Positions 5,874 through 12,401 of a stretch of 64,000 nucleotides of DNA are shown here, piece after piece (the first letter of the stretch is position 1; each line of letters starts with the position of its first letter). The translations under genes and the position numbers were made by a program. The notes under the pieces are model-generated. The model ran no database searches. It was not told the DNA's origin and saw only the letters and a list, made by a program, of their open reading frames with translations. The DNA comes from Terriglobia bacterium (lineage in GTDB: Bacteria; Acidobacteriota; Thermoanaerobaculia; Thermoanaerobaculales; Thermoanaerobaculaceae), in assembly GCA_020073245.1 (NCBI GenBank), contig JAIQFQ010000014.1:1-64000 (forward strand), in the 5' to 3' direction.

Positions 5874-6671
5874 TCAGGTCGGTGTCGCTCGCGCGACCGC
5901 ATGGGCGTAGGGGGTCGAGGTGTACTCGACCATCTCGAAGCCGCCCGCCTCCAGCTCCGATGACAGCTCGTCACGTGTGAAGTGGTGGTCAAAGGAGCCC
6001 GCGAGGGAATCGCCGAGCTCCACCGGCTCCCGCGAAAACCGCACGCGGCGCACGGCCGACGCAATCGCGCGGATGTACCGAAACCTCCGTGCCGAGGGGT
6101 TGCGCTCGAAGAACGACACCAGCAGCGGCGCCGTCGCCCGCAGGTGGCCCCGAAGCTGGCGGAGGAACGCGACTCTCGACTCACGCCGCGGGACGTGCAT
6201 GTAGCCGCCCCAGCCGATCACCGCGGCGTCGAAGGTGCCGAATCCTCCGGGAACAGCGTCGGGCTCCGCGAGCACGAAGCGGAGGGGGACGCCCTCCGCG
6301 TCCGCGAGATGGTTTGCCGTCGCCACGAGGCCATCGGTACAGTCGAAAGCGTCGACCTCGAAACCCTGCCGTCTCAGGGCGATGGCCTCCCGCCCCCCAC
6401 CCGCAGATGCGACGAGTACCGACCGGCACGAGGCGAAGTGGCGCCGGATGATGTCCTCCTCCCAACCCTGGAGCCCCGAGAGGTTGTACTCCCGGTCGTG
6501 GTACTTCGCAGCACCTTCGTAGTAGAGGCTGGTCGCGGCGCGAAGGGCGGCCGGGCCCACGACACCAAGCCAGACCCCCTCATGGACGGCTTGCAGGGCA
6601 TTCAGAACAGCGCGCTCACACCGGTCCGCTCGCGCGTACCACCGGGCCACCCAGATTGACCAGCGTGACAC
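5874..6671 (-). CDS. Class I SAM-dependent methyltransferase in a RiPP cluster
   Basis: A 265-residue protein with a Rossmann-type methyltransferase core. The motif I region reads VLVASAGGGREAIAL, followed by an acidic residue at the end of strand 2 (VDAFDCTDG), then the VIGWGGYMHV post-II region. It starts with GTG at 6671 with a weak GAGA upstream, 24 nt after the precursor peptide stop. Its place as last gene of a kinase-cyclase-precursor operon suggests that it methylates the peptide product; methyltransferases are known tailoring enzymes of lasso peptides. A role on another small molecule is possible. Confidence 0.75.
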   Translation of the reverse strand: MSRWSIWVARWYARADRCERAVLNALQAVHEGVWLGVVGPAALRAATSLYYEGAAKYHDREYNLSGLQGWEEDIIRRHFASCRSVLVASAGGGREAIALRRQGFEVDAFDCTDGLVATANHLADAEGVPLRFVLAEPDAVPGGFGTFDAAVIGWGGYMHVPRRESRVAFLRQLRGHLRATAPLLVSFFERNPSARRFRYIRAIASAVRRVRFSREPVELGDSLAGSFDHHFTRDELSSELEAGGFEMVEYTSTPYAHAVARATPT

Positions 6672-6695
6672 TGCTATCTCGAAGCCCCTGGGAGG

Positions 6696-6860
6696 CTAGG
6701 GGCGGGTCGGGTTCGCCGGGCTGGCGTCTGGATTAGGACCGGATTTCCGTACGACGTCCGCAAGCGTGGCGACCTCCACAACCCTCGGGGCCTCGTACGG
6801 CGCACGCCCACGAACCGGGGAGATTCCTTCACGCTTCGCCTCGGGGCGCTGATCGCTCAT
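6696..6860 (-). CDS. Lasso-type RiPP precursor peptide
   Basis: A 54-residue peptide starting at the ATG at 6860, which overlaps the cyclase stop codon as ATGA. Its middle contains YEAPRVVEVATLADVVRKSG, closely resembling the Y-x2-P-x-(L/V)-x2-(V)-x2-L leader signature that lasso-peptide RRE proteins recognise. The last 16 residues, KSGPNPDASPANPTRP, are the likely core: Pro/Asn-rich, with a single Asp. If Lys were residue 1 the Asp would be at ring position 7; with Ser or Gly first it would be 6 or 5. The expected Thr two residues before the core is absent, so the cleavage site is uncertain. The gene lies between a lasso-cyclase-like gene and a methyltransferase. Confidence 0.72.
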   Translation of the reverse strand: MSDQRPEAKREGISPVRGRAPYEAPRVVEVATLADVVRKSGPNPDASPANPTRP

Positions 6861-8749
6861 CGGTCGCTCCAACTTTCTGCTTGTCTTTCTATCACCTTCC
6901 GCAGCCACAACTCAAGCGTGGCGACACGCCAGAAGACAGGAGCCACGAGCGAGGAGTCACGATACGCAGCGGATAAGAGTGGCCGCGCCCTTGCCTCGGG
7001 CACATACCGTTCCGCGAGCCACCGGTCCGTCCCGAACAGCATCGCCTGGAGCGTGCCCCGGCTCTCTGCGATCACCTTCCGGACGTAACTGTCGAAGACC
7101 ACCTTCCGCCTCCGGACCATGACCGTGTCCGGCAGGTCGCGGCCCATGCTCCGGCGCAGCAGGCTCTTGCGCAGGCTGCCGGGGCTGCGGAGTCGGTACG
7201 GGATGCCCAGGACGAACTCCGCGAGGGGACGGTCGAGGAACGGGTGGCGGGCCTCGATACCATGAGTGCTGGCCTGAACATTGAAGACCTCGAGGGTCCT
7301 GTCCAGCAGAGGACTGGTCACGTTGTCGAAGGTCTGCTGCTGGAGCCTCGAAGGGAAAGTGACTGCCGGCGGCCCGCTGGGCTGGAGGAGCAAGGCCCTT
7401 GCGGGGGTGAATCCGGGGTTCACCCACTCAGGGAGCTGGGGCGGCCTTTGGAGGATGCGCCGGACCGCTCGGAGCCTGGGTAGCGACAGCGACGCGCGGA
7501 GCGAATCCCTCAGGATCTCGAGGAAACCCCACGAGCTCGCGTTGCGGAAAGCCCAGGCGTCCCTGACGAGGCGGAGGTAGCACCGGTGGAGAGCGAGGTC
7601 GTAGAAGTATGCCCACTCCTCGGCGATCTCGTCGCCGCCGATCCCCGTGAGCAGCACCCTGGCCCCGATCCGGCGCAGGACCCGAGCCTCCGCCTTCGCG
7701 GAACCCCGTTGGATGAATGCCAGCGGCGCGTCGAGGTCCCGGATCTCCTGCTCGAGGCCCTCCACGAGCGCCTCGGAGAACGGCGACACTAGGTGACCTT
7801 CGAAGGGTACCCGCGCGGCGACGGCGGCGATCGCCTCGGACTCGTCGCACTCGAGGCCGGGGTACACCGAAGAGACGGTCGAGAACGGCGGCCACTCCGG
7901 CCCGCACTCGGCGAATAGCTCCCCGGCCAGGACGACGATTGACGCCGAGTCCACCCCGCCGCTGAGGTGGCAGGTCACCGGGGCGTCCACCTGCACGCGC
8001 TTGCGCACGGCGGCCTTGAGCAGCTCGCGGAACCGCGCGTGGTAGTCGGCCGGGCGCTCAAGGAGCACCTCGCGCCGCGGGTCGGGGCTCCACCAGCGCC
8101 GCTGGGTAGCCCCGGCGGCATCGGCGACCAGCACGTGCCCGGCCCGCACCCGGGACACCATGCGGAAGAACGTCTTTTCGCTCTCCTCGAACCGGAATAG
8201 GAGGTGCGCCGCCACCGTTTGGTCGTCCGGCTCGGCCGGAACGAGGCGGGTGCGCAGGAGCTGCTTGGGCTCCGAACCGAACAGGATGAACCGAGGGTTC
8301 CAGTGGTAGACGAGCGGCCTCATCCCGAAGGCATCCCGTGCCGCGAACACCTGCCGCTCCCCCTCATCCCAGATCGCGAAGGCGAAGTCGCCGTCCAGCA
8401 CGTCGAGGGCCGCGGCACCCCAACGTTCGTGCGCGGCCAGAATCAGCGCGGCGTCGGAGGGCTTCTCCCTCCACCACCCAGCCCCGAGTCCATTGGCAAC
8501 CTCGTCCCGGTTGTACAGCGATGCGTCGGCCACGATGGCACGAGACCCGTCCGGCGACCAAACCGGTCCGAGGTGCTCACGCTCCGGGCGGCGCAACGCG
8601 AGAAGAGCGTGCCCGAGGGTGGCCGACCCCCGAGTCTCGCAGCGCCAGCCGTCCGGGCCCCGGTGGCGGACCGCTTCCATCATTTCGGCCGCGAGCCCGT
8701 CGGGGACCGGGCGACCGTCCCAGAAGGCCGCGCCGCCGATCCCGCTCAC
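6857..8749 (-). CDS. Asparagine-synthetase-like lasso cyclase
   Basis: A 630-residue two-domain protein related to asparagine synthetase B. The N-terminal glutamine-amidotransferase-like domain retains RHRGPDGW, LYNRDEV and DGDFAFAIWD. The catalytic Cys2 is missing (it begins MSGIGG), so it should not hydrolyse glutamine, as in lasso-peptide C proteins. The C-terminal domain has the ATP-pyrophosphatase loop SGGVDSAS near residue 260. Such enzymes adenylate an Asp/Glu side chain of the precursor and close the isopeptide ring. It starts with GTG at 8749, overlapping the kinase-like gene as GTGA, and ends overlapping the precursor start as ATGA, so the unit is tightly coupled. An ordinary asparagine synthetase is unlikely given the lost Cys and the neighbouring precursor. 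Confidence 0.82.
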   Translation of the reverse strand: MSGIGGAAFWDGRPVPDGLAAEMMEAVRHRGPDGWRCETRGSATLGHALLALRRPEREHLGPVWSPDGSRAIVADASLYNRDEVANGLGAGWWREKPSDAALILAAHERWGAAALDVLDGDFAFAIWDEGERQVFAARDAFGMRPLVYHWNPRFILFGSEPKQLLRTRLVPAEPDDQTVAAHLLFRFEESEKTFFRMVSRVRAGHVLVADAAGATQRRWWSPDPRREVLLERPADYHARFRELLKAAVRKRVQVDAPVTCHLSGGVDSASIVVLAGELFAECGPEWPPFSTVSSVYPGLECDESEAIAAVAARVPFEGHLVSPFSEALVEGLEQEIRDLDAPLAFIQRGSAKAEARVLRRIGARVLLTGIGGDEIAEEWAYFYDLALHRCYLRLVRDAWAFRNASSWGFLEILRDSLRASLSLPRLRAVRRILQRPPQLPEWVNPGFTPARALLLQPSGPPAVTFPSRLQQQTFDNVTSPLLDRTLEVFNVQASTHGIEARHPFLDRPLAEFVLGIPYRLRSPGSLRKSLLRRSMGRDLPDTVMVRRRKVVFDSYVRKVIAESRGTLQAMLFGTDRWLAERYVPEARARPLLSAAYRDSSLVAPVFWRVATLELWLRKVIERQAESWSDR

Positions 8750-9639
8750 GGCGACGCCCCGGCGCCAGCTGTCCCGCCCAACAAGCCGGCGATCTGGTCG
8801 GCGGCGCCGGCCAGCCGGTCCAATCCATCGGGCAACCGGAGGCGGAAAGCGTTAGCCTGCTCTGCGAGCCTGACGTAGAGCTCGAACTGGGTCTGCCACG
8901 CACGGCTCACCGGCAGCTCGCCGAAGCCGTTCCGCACCAGCTCCATGACGGCCTCGCGACGCCGCATCGGCACACACGTGATCGCCGCCGCGGCTGGGTC
9001 CCTCGGCTGGAGGAAGTAGATGCGACTGAGAGGTCGCAGCGCCCAGATCCCATCAGCGCAGCCGACAGGTGCAACAACTCGGCCCTCGCGGTTCCGGCAC
9101 GGCAGGAGGTCGTCGGCAACCAACCTGACGCCCAATCCTGCGAGCGTCGCGGCGAGCCTGGACTTGCCCGACCCACTGGCACCGGTGAAGGCGGCAATAT
9201 CTCCGCCGCAGGCTATGGCAGCGGCGTGCAGGGTGACTCTTCCCTGCAGGATCGCGGCAAAAGGAACGGCCTGCCGCACTGCCGCGCCGCATTCCCCTGA
9301 AGCGCTCGGGGCCAAAGCCAGGCGGAGTACTGTCCCGTCGCCTGCGACGAGCCCCTCGCAGCCGCACTGGGGCGGGAGAGGGTGCCACCCGGATTCGGGC
9401 ATGGCTTCCCCATGCCCTACACCCACCGACGCACGGTCGCCGAGACAGACCGTCACCTCGCCGTCGGTCCAGCCGCTCTCTTCGAGGCCGGGAAGCGCCC
9501 GGTCGCAGATCACGCACATCCCCGCGACCTTGTACGAGAAAACAGTTGTTCCGCCTGCAGCGCCAGAGCAGGAGAGTCGCCGGGGCCCGCCGCTCACTGG
9601 TTGCACGATGACATCGTGCCACACCTTCCCCGACGTCAC
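8746..9639 (-). CDS. HPr-kinase-like protein of the RiPP cluster
   Basis: A 297-residue protein with an HprK/P-type P-loop, FTGASGSGKS, near residue 150, followed by RLVADDLLP, the acidic pair typical of HPr kinase domains. The N-terminal half is divergent and Cys-rich. HprK-like kinases are recurrent members of lasso-peptide clusters, where some phosphorylate a C-terminal residue of the peptide. Here the predicted core contains Ser and Thr that could be targets, which is inference. It is the first gene of the coupled operon; the start (GTG at 9639) has no clear ribosome-binding site and a GTG at 9624 is an alternative. Confidence 0.75.
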   Translation of the reverse strand: MTSGKVWHDVIVQPVSGGPRRLSCSGAAGGTTVFSYKVAGMCVICDRALPGLEESGWTDGEVTVCLGDRASVGVGHGEAMPESGWHPLPPQCGCEGLVAGDGTVLRLALAPSASGECGAAVRQAVPFAAILQGRVTLHAAAIACGGDIAAFTGASGSGKSRLAATLAGLGVRLVADDLLPCRNREGRVVAPVGCADGIWALRPLSRIYFLQPRDPAAAAITCVPMRRREAVMELVRNGFGELPVSRAWQTQFELYVRLAEQANAFRLRLPDGLDRLAGAADQIAGLLGGTAGAGASP

Positions 9640-9789: not shown

Positions 9790-10866
9790 CTACTTGATAG
9801 TTGGTGGGTGGTCGCTGCGCCCGGCTAGGCCAAACCAGGAGTGGAGTTCCTGCGCGACGATCTCGTCTCCGCGAACATTCGTATGGACAAGATCGGCGAA
9901 GCCCTCCGAGGGCACCCTGTCCAAGAGGTCAACCGTGTCGATCCCGCGCCCTCGTAGCTTCGCCATCTCTGCCTGCCGGGCACGCGCGAACTGGCCGTAG
10001 AGCTTCTCTCCATCGACGGTCCCCAAATAGTCCTGGATGAGAGCCCGATTGAGCGGGTAGATGACGACCACGGGTCGAATGCCGGCTCCGCGGAGAACCG
10101 CGCAGGCCCGGAGAACCCAGTCCAGGGTGGGTGCCGTCCGGGAGTTGTTTCTGCTCTCAAGAAAGCGCTCGAACCGCTCACGCGCGAAGCCACTGCCGTC
10201 GCGCCACACTCGGTCGCGGTTGGCCCCATCGTGGAAGTACCTGGGCCTGTGCCCAGCTGCTTTCACCAATGCCTCGGTCGCGTCACGGCAGCGGAGCAGG
10301 AAGAACGGCTTCGTGCAGTTGTACAACAGCCAGGCTTCGACCTCATCCAAGGAGCATGGAAGGCGCAGCTTTCCGGCGAAGCGCCTCGCCAGCGCCTTGT
10401 CATAGACTGCATTGCTCCCCTCGAGAGGCTGGCCAAACCTCAAGAACTTCGTTGCGACAACGTCAAGAAACACAACGCGGCTACCGATGCTACCCGCCCG
10501 CGTGAGGAGTCTGGCCTGTTCGATCACCTGCTCTTCGGTCGCACCATTCAGGGCGCCAGGGAAGACTTCTTCGTTCTGGAGCTTGGAAAGTCTGGCCCAC
10601 AACGTCTCTTCGGGCCGGTCGACGAAGTTTGAGCAAAATGCCGAGTCTCCGAGGAGGAAGATCCTCCACCGGCTCAGGTCCTCCTCCCAGAGCAGGCGGC
10701 GACGCGGGTCCTGCAGTGCGAGCCACGGGACGAAACAGCGAACCAATTCCCCGAGGCTCCACACGAGCGCCGCACAGATGCTCACGAACAGGCCCACCCG
10801 GATGAAGAACCGGCTCGACACCGGCGCTCGGGCGCCGGCCTGGCTAGAGCTCATCAGGCCCGCCAT
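9790..10866 (-). CDS. SGNH/DHHW-like membrane-anchored protein partnered with MBOAT
   Basis: About 358 residues. An N-terminal transmembrane helix (FIRVGLFVSICAALVW) anchors an extracytoplasmic domain containing FLLGDSAFCSN (block I Gly-Asp-Ser) and near the C-terminus DLVHTNVRG (Asp-x2-His, block V). This is the pattern of SGNH-family esterases/O-acetyltransferases such as the AlgJ/AlgX and PatB/DHHW proteins that work with MBOAT acyl transferases. It starts 8 nt after the MBOAT stop, at ATG 10866 or ATG 10854. The two probably form a two-component system that passes an acyl group across the membrane to a surface glycan or other acceptor. Confidence 0.7.
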   Translation of the reverse strand: MAGLMSSSQAGARAPVSSRFFIRVGLFVSICAALVWSLGELVRCFVPWLALQDPRRRLLWEEDLSRWRIFLLGDSAFCSNFVDRPEETLWARLSKLQNEEVFPGALNGATEEQVIEQARLLTRAGSIGSRVVFLDVVATKFLRFGQPLEGSNAVYDKALARRFAGKLRLPCSLDEVEAWLLYNCTKPFFLLRCRDATEALVKAAGHRPRYFHDGANRDRVWRDGSGFARERFERFLESRNNSRTAPTLDWVLRACAVLRGAGIRPVVVIYPLNRALIQDYLGTVDGEKLYGQFARARQAEMAKLRGRGIDTVDLLDRVPSEGFADLVHTNVRGDEIVAQELHSWFGLAGRSDHPPTIK

Positions 10867-10874
10867 GCAAGACG

Positions 10875-12401
10875 TTAGAAACCCGCATAGATGAACCCGG
10901 AGCCTTCCTCCACACCCAGCAGCAGGACCGCGAGAACGGCCGTGGCATAGAGCGACCAACGCACCCAGGTCGGCAAACGGTCGAGCCTGGCAAAGTCCGG
11001 CTCGCCGTCGACGCCGTGCGATTCGACCAGGGCGATGATCACGAACACAAGAAGGCACGCTGCCTGACCCGGGCCGAACGTCGCTCGAGCGAAATCGGGC
11101 CCAGCGCGCAGAGGTCCGACAGCGACGCTTCCGGGGCCGAGACCGGCTGACGCGGCGATCCCCTCACCGATCCTGCGGAGAATGAAAAACCCGTCGGCCA
11201 CGGACGACGCCCGAAAGAACACCCACGCGATGTTGGTCATGACGAGCGTGGAGAGTATCCGGACGGAGTTGCGCAGCCTCGGGTGCGCGCCAAAGCCGAT
11301 CCTCCGGCCGATCGCCCTCCGTGCCTTCCTGGTCAGCACCGACACGCTCATGAACAGGGCGAGAACCGCTCCCCACGCCAGGTACGTTGTCTGCTCGCCA
11401 TGCCAGAGACCGGCGAGCAGCATCGTGACGAACACCGAGACGGAGAATGCCGTGGTATCCACCAAATTGCTGGGAACGTGGATCGCGTCCAGGACGCGCC
11501 CGAGTTTGTACGTGAGCGGGAGGAACACGTAGTCCCTCAGCCACGACGAGAGCGAGATGTGCCATCGCCGCCAGAAATCGGAGACCGACCGTGCGGCGTA
11601 CGGCGCGTTGAAGTTTCTCTGAAGTCTCAGCCCCAGCAGCCTGCCGAGACCGATCGCCAGGTCCGAGTAGGCGGAGAAGTCGCAGTAGAGCTGAACGCCG
11701 AACACGACCGTGCCGAACGCCAGCGCAAACCAGGGCTCCTCGCGTGGGTGGAGGAACACCTGCCCGACATAGACGCCCAGTCGATCCGCCACGAAGATCT
11801 TCTTTACAAGACCCCACAGGATCAACCGCAGCCCGTTGCGAGCCGTCTCCTGGTCGACGCCCTGCGGATCCTCCAGCTGTTGCAGCAGCGCCTGCGGACG
11901 GTCGATCGGCCCGGCAGGGAGCTCGAGGAAGACGGCAACGTAGAGAAAGAAACGACCGAGATGGCGTTCACTCGGCAGCCGGCGCGCGTAGACCTCGAAG
12001 AGGTAGGCCACGACCTTGAGGCTGTAGTAGGACAGCCCAAGGGGGACAGCCGTGCTCTCCGGGCCAATCAGGCCCCGAGCAGGCAGGGATACCTGGATCG
12101 CGTGCCCGAGCAGCGACACAGATCGGTACGCGTAGAGCGCCGCGATCGCCCCGCCAACCGCGCAGAGGAGCAGCATCCTCCGGACTCGCGGGTTCTGTGA
12201 CGACTCGATGAGGCGAGCGAGGCCGAAGCCCCAGAAGCTGAAGAGGGAAAGGAGCACGACGCTGAGGAGGGAGCCACATGCGGCGAAGAGCATGCTCGCG
12301 GCAAGAAGTGGGATCCATCGCCGTGACCTCCCGGTCAGGAAGGTGCAGACGAGCACGAGCCCGAAGAAGACTGCAAAGGAGAGTGAGGTGACCTCAGGCA
12401 T
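10875..12401 (-). CDS. MBOAT family membrane O-acyltransferase
   Basis: A 508-residue polytopic protein with the MBOAT signature SDFWRRWHISLSSWLRDY and the catalytic-His region GLWHGEQTTYLAWG. It resembles AlgI/DltB-type acyltransferases, which move acyl groups across the cytoplasmic membrane for polysaccharide or protein O-acylation. About 10-12 hydrophobic helices are visible. It is immediately upstream of the SGNH-like partner. The acceptor is not evident; no alginate or cellulose genes lie nearby, although the next operon downstream on the same strand is the lasso-like RiPP cluster. Confidence 0.88.
   Translation of the reverse strand: MPEVTSLSFAVFFGLVLVCTFLTGRSRRWIPLLAASMLFAACGSLLSVVLLSLFSFWGFGLARLIESSQNPRVRRMLLLCAVGGAIAALYAYRSVSLLGHAIQVSLPARGLIGPESTAVPLGLSYYSLKVVAYLFEVYARRLPSERHLGRFFLYVAVFLELPAGPIDRPQALLQQLEDPQGVDQETARNGLRLILWGLVKKIFVADRLGVYVGQVFLHPREEPWFALAFGTVVFGVQLYCDFSAYSDLAIGLGRLLGLRLQRNFNAPYAARSVSDFWRRWHISLSSWLRDYVFLPLTYKLGRVLDAIHVPSNLVDTTAFSVSVFVTMLLAGLWHGEQTTYLAWGAVLALFMSVSVLTRKARRAIGRRIGFGAHPRLRNSVRILSTLVMTNIAWVFFRASSVADGFFILRRIGEGIAASAGLGPGSVAVGPLRAGPDFARATFGPGQAACLLVFVIIALVESHGVDGEPDFARLDRLPTWVRWSLYATAVLAVLLLGVEEGSGFIYAGF

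Follow-up and report, generated by a model that had tools for sequence, protein, structure and literature searches.

Phosphorylated lasso peptides are made by clusters such as those of paeninodin, with its kinase PadeK, and of Bradymonas, with the precursor BsfA and the kinase BsfK. These clusters combine an HprK-like kinase (K) with a His-Lys-Asp-Asp motif, a macrolactam synthetase or cyclase (C) and a precursor (A) with a YxxP leader, and they also carry B1, the PqqD-like recognition element (RRE) for ribosomally synthesized and post-translationally modified peptides (RiPPs), and B2, a transglutaminase-like leader peptidase. Here we describe a related cluster in a Terriglobia bacterium of the Acidobacteriota (GCA_020073245.1), found in a stretch of 64,000 nucleotides (the window) that makes up the first 64,000 of the 85,472 bases of contig C61 in a draft genome (G000) of 4.38 Mb and 94.2% completeness. 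The cluster has the kinase, the cyclase and a precursor with the same type of leader, followed by a methyltransferase (MT), but neither B1 nor B2 is present in cis. Our reading, to which we give a probability of roughly two in three, is that the operon is split: it would make a phosphorylated lasso peptide of the paeninodin/Bsf type in this member of the Acidobacteriota, with B1 and B2 supplied from elsewhere in the genome.

As Table 1 shows, the four genes run in the order K-C-A-MT on the minus strand, over positions 5874-9639 of the window. K and C overlap by GTGA and C and A by ATGA, MT starts 24 nt past A, and a GGAG lies 7-10 nt ahead of the start codon of A. None of the four frames is broken, the spacing between them is tight, and codon position 3 is the richest in G+C for C, K and MT. 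The first-pass annotation, made from the window alone, had placed four coupled genes here and called them a lasso-type cluster of kinase, cyclase, precursor and methyltransferase; the places and the coupling are confirmed, and the lasso assignment is supported by the leader model and the cyclase tree described below. Past MT, only 5.9 kb remain before the contig begins, and the view on that side stops there.

That annotation had also remarked on the lack of B1 and B2 in the window. The observation extends to the whole of contig C61, which gives no match to PF05402 (PqqD/B1) or PF13471 (B2) even at E ≤ 10. Fusion of B1 to K or to C was rejected, as neither protein gives a PqqD match. The genome-wide search for B1 and B2 that had been proposed leads instead to contig C50, which carries a complete second lasso cluster with C, A, K, B1 and a convergent B2. 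The C50 B1 scores 60.3 bits against PF05402; the C50 B2 scores 39.3 bits against NF033537 (cut-off 33), keeps the Cys and His, and is the sole B2 above that cut-off in the genome. The C50 precursor has a leader ending in TATL, with Thr at −2, and the core GGSPGIGETANPETRAPLP with Glu8. The tetranucleotide make-up of the window and of C50 correlates with r 0.994, and misbinning of C61 from an unrelated organism was rejected on this ground; a genome of the same genus (G008) scores 0.986, and a mix of close relatives stays compatible with these values.

The C50 pair is not the only one to consider. On contig C63 of the same genome, a radical S-adenosylmethionine (SAM) RiPP cluster holds a PqqD-domain protein that passes the Pfam cut-off with 25 bits, together with a transglutaminase-like protein (25.9 bits, or 26.5 with in-frame neighbours, for a cut-off of 26), beside an HprK-like kinase. 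In G334, a distant genome with a homologous cluster (see below), the sole B2 above the cut-off sits in a similar radical-SAM cluster. Processing of the window precursor by the C63 pair rather than the C50 pair is nevertheless quite improbable, given that the C63 B2-like protein reaches 23.5 bits where the lasso B2 model NF033537 asks for 33, and that the C63 PqqD domain continues into a Cys/Gly-rich tail resembling a substrate of its own.

The precursor passes the NCBI lasso-leader model NF033521 (lasso_leader_L3) with 19.8 bits for a cut-off of 19, and it is the sole match above the cut-off genome-wide (20.4 bits, E 0.0044). Its leader carries YEAPRV at −17 to −12, in agreement with the RRE-read motif [Y/W]xxPx[L/V/I/A/F/Y] described in PMC13381572, and the 54-residue precursor with a Y-E-x-P leader motif proposed in the first pass is thereby borne out. 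If the core starts at Lys39, Y22 falls at −17, P25 at −14, V27 at −12 and V37 at −2; the same spacing is given for Bsf-type leaders in PMC10368454. The core predicted in this way, KSGPNPDASPANPTRP, contains five Pro, ends in Pro, and by the Y(−17) spacing places Asp7 within the 7-9 range of acyl donors.

Two residues of the precursor are unusual. The −2 residue, already noted together with the five Pro as not being Thr, is Val37, and residue 1 is Lys rather than a small residue. Microcin J25 reportedly tolerates Val in place of Thr(−2), a point on which no argument here depends. Among the 69 precursor candidates of the collected loci, −2 is Thr in 67, Ala in 1 and Val in 1 (the window), while residue 1 is Gly in 36 and Lys in 6; the search pattern admitted no more than 14 residue types as residue 1, and Mesorhizobium precursors that are nearly identical were counted separately. 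For residue 1, PMC7549694 describes a preference and not a strict rule (Gly 62%, Ala 16%, Leu 7%). Phosphorylated lasso peptides with Ile or Val at −2 have been described, also from Acidobacteriaceae (PMC10368454), so Val(−2) is a variant, a real departure that does not exclude the precursor from the lasso class.

The K-C-A-MT order and a KSGxxxD core recur in two other, distant genomes. On contig C41 of G097, the precursor has the core KSGQNIDVNQLTKPGMGGG and Thr(−2), with no B1 or B2 near; on contig C63 of G334, it has the core KSGGAEDGGAAMMDKMGQG and Thr(−2); B1 follows MT there on the opposite strand, and B2 is missing. The core comparison suggested in the first pass thus returns a motif common to the precursors of the window, L138 and L196, in which Lys1, Ser2, Gly3 and Asp7 are all conserved; homologous loci devoid of a precursor, which would have spoken against the annotation, were not what we found, as G097 and G334 both have one. 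Judged from the leaders, Thr(−2) in G097 and G334 implies a putative B2-type cut before Lys1 though no B2 is in cis, and a seven-residue Lys1-Asp7 ring is predicted for all three peptides. The sole B2 above the cut-off sits in a lone B1-B2 pair on C2 in G097, a genome with three lasso precursors, and on C27, within the radical-SAM RiPP cluster, in G334. In two further relatives, L059 and G131, B1 lies next to K and the contigs end in or just past C.

These relatives also bear on whether the window cluster is decaying and non-functional, having lost B1 and B2 and making no product, with Val(−2) and Lys1 as signs of relaxed selection. Val(−2) does stand alone among the 69 candidates, and the closely related cyclase loci L059 and G131 retain B1 beside K. 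We consider decay very improbable, however: four tight frames remain intact, with the G+C peak at codon position 3 in C, K and MT, the catalytic motifs of the kinase are kept, and the K-C-A-MT order with its KSG core persists in two distant genomes, so the absence of B2 in cis is no local accident.

The best NCBIfam model for the cyclase is NF033535 (lass_lactam_cya), with 316.8 bits for a cut-off of 525, and five other lasso-type cyclases scanned also fall below this cut-off. A PDB search with C matches only a hydroxyamidotransferase and asparagine synthetases. The protein begins (GTG)-Ser-Gly-Ile, with Ser in place of the catalytic Cys2; its description as "Cys-less" in the first pass holds for residue 2 but not for the protein, in which other cysteines are present. 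In two trees (37 rows, then 41 rows), the 7 Cys2 glutamine-type proteins split from all lasso-type rows with a support of 100/100, and the window C falls in a 100/100 clade with G097 C41, G334 C63, G131 and the Chloroflexota protein L059. Grouping with true asparagine synthetases, named beforehand as fatal to the lasso assignment, is therefore not seen, and a true asparagine synthetase was rejected on both the missing Cys2 and the tree position. The enzyme could still be imagined to make an open ring or an unthreaded isopeptide, or to act as an amidotransferase, since its score is below the NF033535 cut-off, Lys1 is unusual and threading is not predictable from sequence. We give this very little credence, as Asp7 occurs with the Y(−17) spacing in all three precursors and C groups at 100/100 with lasso loci in which a precursor, B1 and B2 are all present.

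Lasso loci in this class often have no B2 nearby. Among the 18 class loci whose precursor is recognizable, B1 and B2 both lie within 5 kb in 6, B1 alone in 7 and neither in 5, so B2 is not nearby in 12/18. The 18 were drawn from 28 loci that yielded 27 cyclase rows, none of them from L177 (G138 C119); four of the 28 class cyclase places lie outside the count, namely G119 C351 and G075 C14:90879 (both Cys2), G119 C749 and G021 C157. At G119 C749 (L055) there is a possible precursor, with no B1 or B2 in flanks of 1.3-1.5 kb. In G142 C873 and G122 C318, B2 is absent with less than 3 kb available on at least one side, and four loci (G075 C14b, G142 C176, G136 C16 and G138 C119) entered via the B2 search, a bias that runs counter to the conclusion. 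In a broader set of 80 loci gathered with the window's cyclase, B1 and B2 are both near 75 of 87 cyclase rows, and near 59 of the 65 rows flanked on each side by 3 kb or more. The profiles for B1, B2, K and MT were built from these same loci; the whole-genome Pfam/NCBIfam searches are independent of them. In G097, G100, G146 and G012, B1-B2 pairs stand alone, with no cyclase in the stretch fetched. The cleanest case is G100, with one C-A-K locus without B1 or B2, one lone B1-B2 pair, and one B2 above the cut-off.

One way to account for such loci is maturation without B2, in which a housekeeping or unrelated peptidase would remove the leader, C would close the freed core, and the lasso peptidase would be dispensed with. 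All three KSG loci are without B2 in cis, and G122, G131, G008 and G032 have lasso-type C loci but no B2 above the cut-off; the loci of G122 (C318, C626) and G008 (C17) lie in genomes that are 96-97% complete. Pseudomycoidin, to go by the title of the paper on it, forms without leader and leader peptidase, and unclustered proteases are described for other RiPPs in PMC10885120. We judge B2-independent maturation unlikely here, however, because G000, G097 and G334 each carry exactly one B2 above the cut-off elsewhere, and because the conserved Y(−17)xxP(−14) and the Thr(−2) of two of the three precursors are expected if RRE and B2 act on them and hard to explain otherwise.

Supply in trans is the reading that we prefer. 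Since YxxP is conserved and Thr(−2) is present in two of three leaders, an RRE and a B2 probably still read these leaders, and as no B2 is in cis, it would have to come from elsewhere. In line with this, FusB1, a non-Bacillota lasso RRE, is reported to bind non-cognate precursors (PMC13381572). The first-pass annotation had left the choice between B1 and B2 acting from elsewhere and a different mode of leader removal and cyclization. The former is favored, with the C50 pair as the likely source; the latter is not needed, because Y(−17)xxP(−14), the −2 residue (Thr in relatives, Val here) and Asp7 are kept.

The kinase scores 42.3 bits against TIGR04352 (HprK_rel_A, cut-off 200) and 20.9 bits against Pfam Hpr_kinase_C, also below the cut-off. 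Its alignment keeps the His (LHA), the Walker A GASGSGKS and the ADD motif, corresponding to the His-Lys-Asp-Asp motif stated for lasso kinases in PMC9266682. Ser2 is the likely phosphate site, as it is the sole hydroxyl residue at a position common to the three cores; the phosphate acceptor in BsfA is given as Ser3 in PMC10368454. The methyltransferase has a homologue at the same place in G097 (40% identity) and in G334, and its family also adjoins K in other lasso loci; searches with MT gave 0 PDB matches and no NCBIfam model above the cut-off. Because the C-termini of the cores differ, sequence-tolerant methylation of the C-terminal carboxyl, or methylation of Lys1, may be considered.

Taken in order, we infer the following pathway. 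Translation of the precursor would be coupled to that of K and C, after which B1, most likely from C50, would bind Y(−17)xxP(−14)xV(−12) and K would phosphorylate the precursor, most likely at ring Ser2. The transglutaminase-fold peptidase B2 of C50 would then cut after V(−2)-R(−1) and free Lys1, allowing C to activate Asp7 and close the seven-residue Lys1-Asp7 macrolactam around the tail. Finally, MT would methylate the product or the precursor, perhaps at the C-terminal carboxylate. The monoisotopic masses calculated for these forms are 1604.791 for the linear core, 1586.780 for the lasso, 1666.746 with phosphate, 1600.796 with methyl and 1680.762 with both. What the sequence shows directly is the genes and the order in which they lie, the loci homologous to them, and B1 and B2 lacking in cis but encoded elsewhere in the genome.

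Several observations weigh against this pathway. The C50 leader has Thr(−2) where the window leader has Val(−2), and in the Bsf system a change of Ile(−2) to Val is reported to have almost stopped cleavage and a change to Thr to have abolished it (PMC10368454). As the −2 position is read so strictly there, −2 specificity could, by analogy, bar sharing of the C50 B2. The experimentally seen first residues listed in PMC12670498 are Gly, Cys, Ser, Ala and Asn (metanodin), and Lys is not among them. The one B2 above the cut-off in G334 is part of a radical-SAM RiPP cluster rather than of a lasso cluster. None is seen in G122 (97% complete, with two precursor-bearing lasso loci) or in G131, so in some relatives B2 may be dispensable or may have been missed. 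At 94.2% completeness, it is also possible that the draft genome holds B1 or B2 genes that are unseen.

Genome mining usually relies on finding A, B and C together. If one RRE/peptidase pair does serve several unlinked lasso operons, many clusters now dismissed as broken could be live. The specificity for the leader, chiefly at −2, could then be tested within one genome that offers a single B2 and precursors with Thr(−2) and with Val(−2). A ring closed between Lys1 and Asp7 would add to the first residues known so far, and G122 could serve as a test of B2-free maturation. More tentatively, and with the odds somewhat against it, the five cyclases of the one clade may mark a family across two phyla with a Lys1-Asp7 ring, phospho-Ser2 and a methyl group, in which no leader peptidase is kept in cis and one shared B1/B2 pair per genome serves scattered operons, Val(−2) included.

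Other features seen along the way are included in Table 1. Directly upstream of K, on the same strand, are a 422-aa protein without a Pfam match and an MBOAT acyltransferase, perhaps a polysaccharide acetylation pair whose link to the cluster is not clear. The MT family occurs in lasso loci of Omnitrophota, cyanobacteria, Rubrobacter and Rokubacteria, and also in the radical-SAM-type clusters L159-L161. Proteins of 300-425 aa with a C-terminal PqqD domain, and with an N-terminal part of no clear family, separate the precursor from the kinase in class loci and also adjoin lasso loci of cyanobacteria. On contig C63 of G000, the PqqD-domain protein is 177 aa long, ends in the Cys/Gly-rich tail GGSCNFFPGGGGCDNNPTS, and is followed by the HprK-like kinase, a radical SAM/SPASM-like protein and the B2-like protein, the whole set lying downstream of a 1782-aa protein that is subtilisin-like by eye. 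In the similar set of G334, the PqqD-like protein is 126 aa long and its tail contains Cys, and the large protein is divergent. Sets of this type look like RiPPs whose precursor is fused to its own RRE.

Table 1. Coordinates of the cluster genes in the window and of related features in other loci.
Feature	Position	Strand	Remarks
K, HprK-related kinase, 297 aa	8746..9639	(-)	GTG start; predicted precursor kinase
C, lasso-type macrolactam synthetase (asparagine-synthetase-like), 630 aa	6857..8749	(-)	Ser at position 2
A, lasso precursor, 54 aa	6696..6860	(-)	leader 1-38, predicted core 39-54 KSGPNPDASPANPTRP
MT, SAM-dependent methyltransferase, 265 aa	5874..6671	(-)	PF13649 31.6 bits, cut-off 27
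422-aa protein and MBOAT acyltransferase	9790-12401	(-)	window, upstream of K
Lone B1-B2 pair	L158 8926-9982		no cyclase or precursor in fetched stretch
Lone B1-B2 pair	L173 9553-10333		no cyclase or precursor in fetched stretch
Lone B1-B2 pair	L186 8375-9094		no cyclase or precursor in fetched stretch
Lone B1-B2 pair	L188 7839-8592		no cyclase or precursor in fetched stretch
C-terminal-PqqD protein	L139 6168-7385		
C-terminal-PqqD protein	L140 4750-5958		
C-terminal-PqqD protein	L141 6568-7485		
C-terminal-PqqD proteins	L075, L085, L105		
MT-family member	L060 10776-11642		
MT-family member	L080 4571-5413		
MT-family member	L082 11564-12421		
MT-family member	L074 4686-5819		
MT-family member	L071 5933-6718		
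MT-family member	L115 1001-1816		
Radical-SAM RiPP set, G000	L016 9819-12627		G000:C63:284818-287626
Similar radical-SAM set, G334	L199 8396-17460		

Among known systems, the cebulassopins are reportedly lasso peptides "from a split biosynthetic operon", as their title has it, and the likeness to the window is that of a split pathway at the level of the title. Xanthomonins I-III are said, again by title, to have a seven-residue macrolactam ring, the size predicted here. Among the matches listed in literature searches for split or unclustered lasso B proteins, none described the window's arrangement in Acidobacteriota. A SAM methyltransferase is shared, by description, with the lassomycin-like clusters, which have the C-terminal carboxyl methyltransferases StspM/LasF (PMC9266682). 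Val or Ile at −2, through which the Bsf and Acidobacteriaceae systems come near the window (PMC10368454), and unclustered RiPP proteases (PMC10885120) are already known from these sources. Unlike paeninodin and Bsf, the window core starts with Lys, has Asp7 as its ring residue, ends in Pro and so has no C-terminal Ser as a paeninodin-like phosphate acceptor, and is accompanied by an added methyltransferase. The KSG subfamily and the Lys1-Asp7 ring predicted for it appear to be new, as does how often lasso loci lack B2 in this class.

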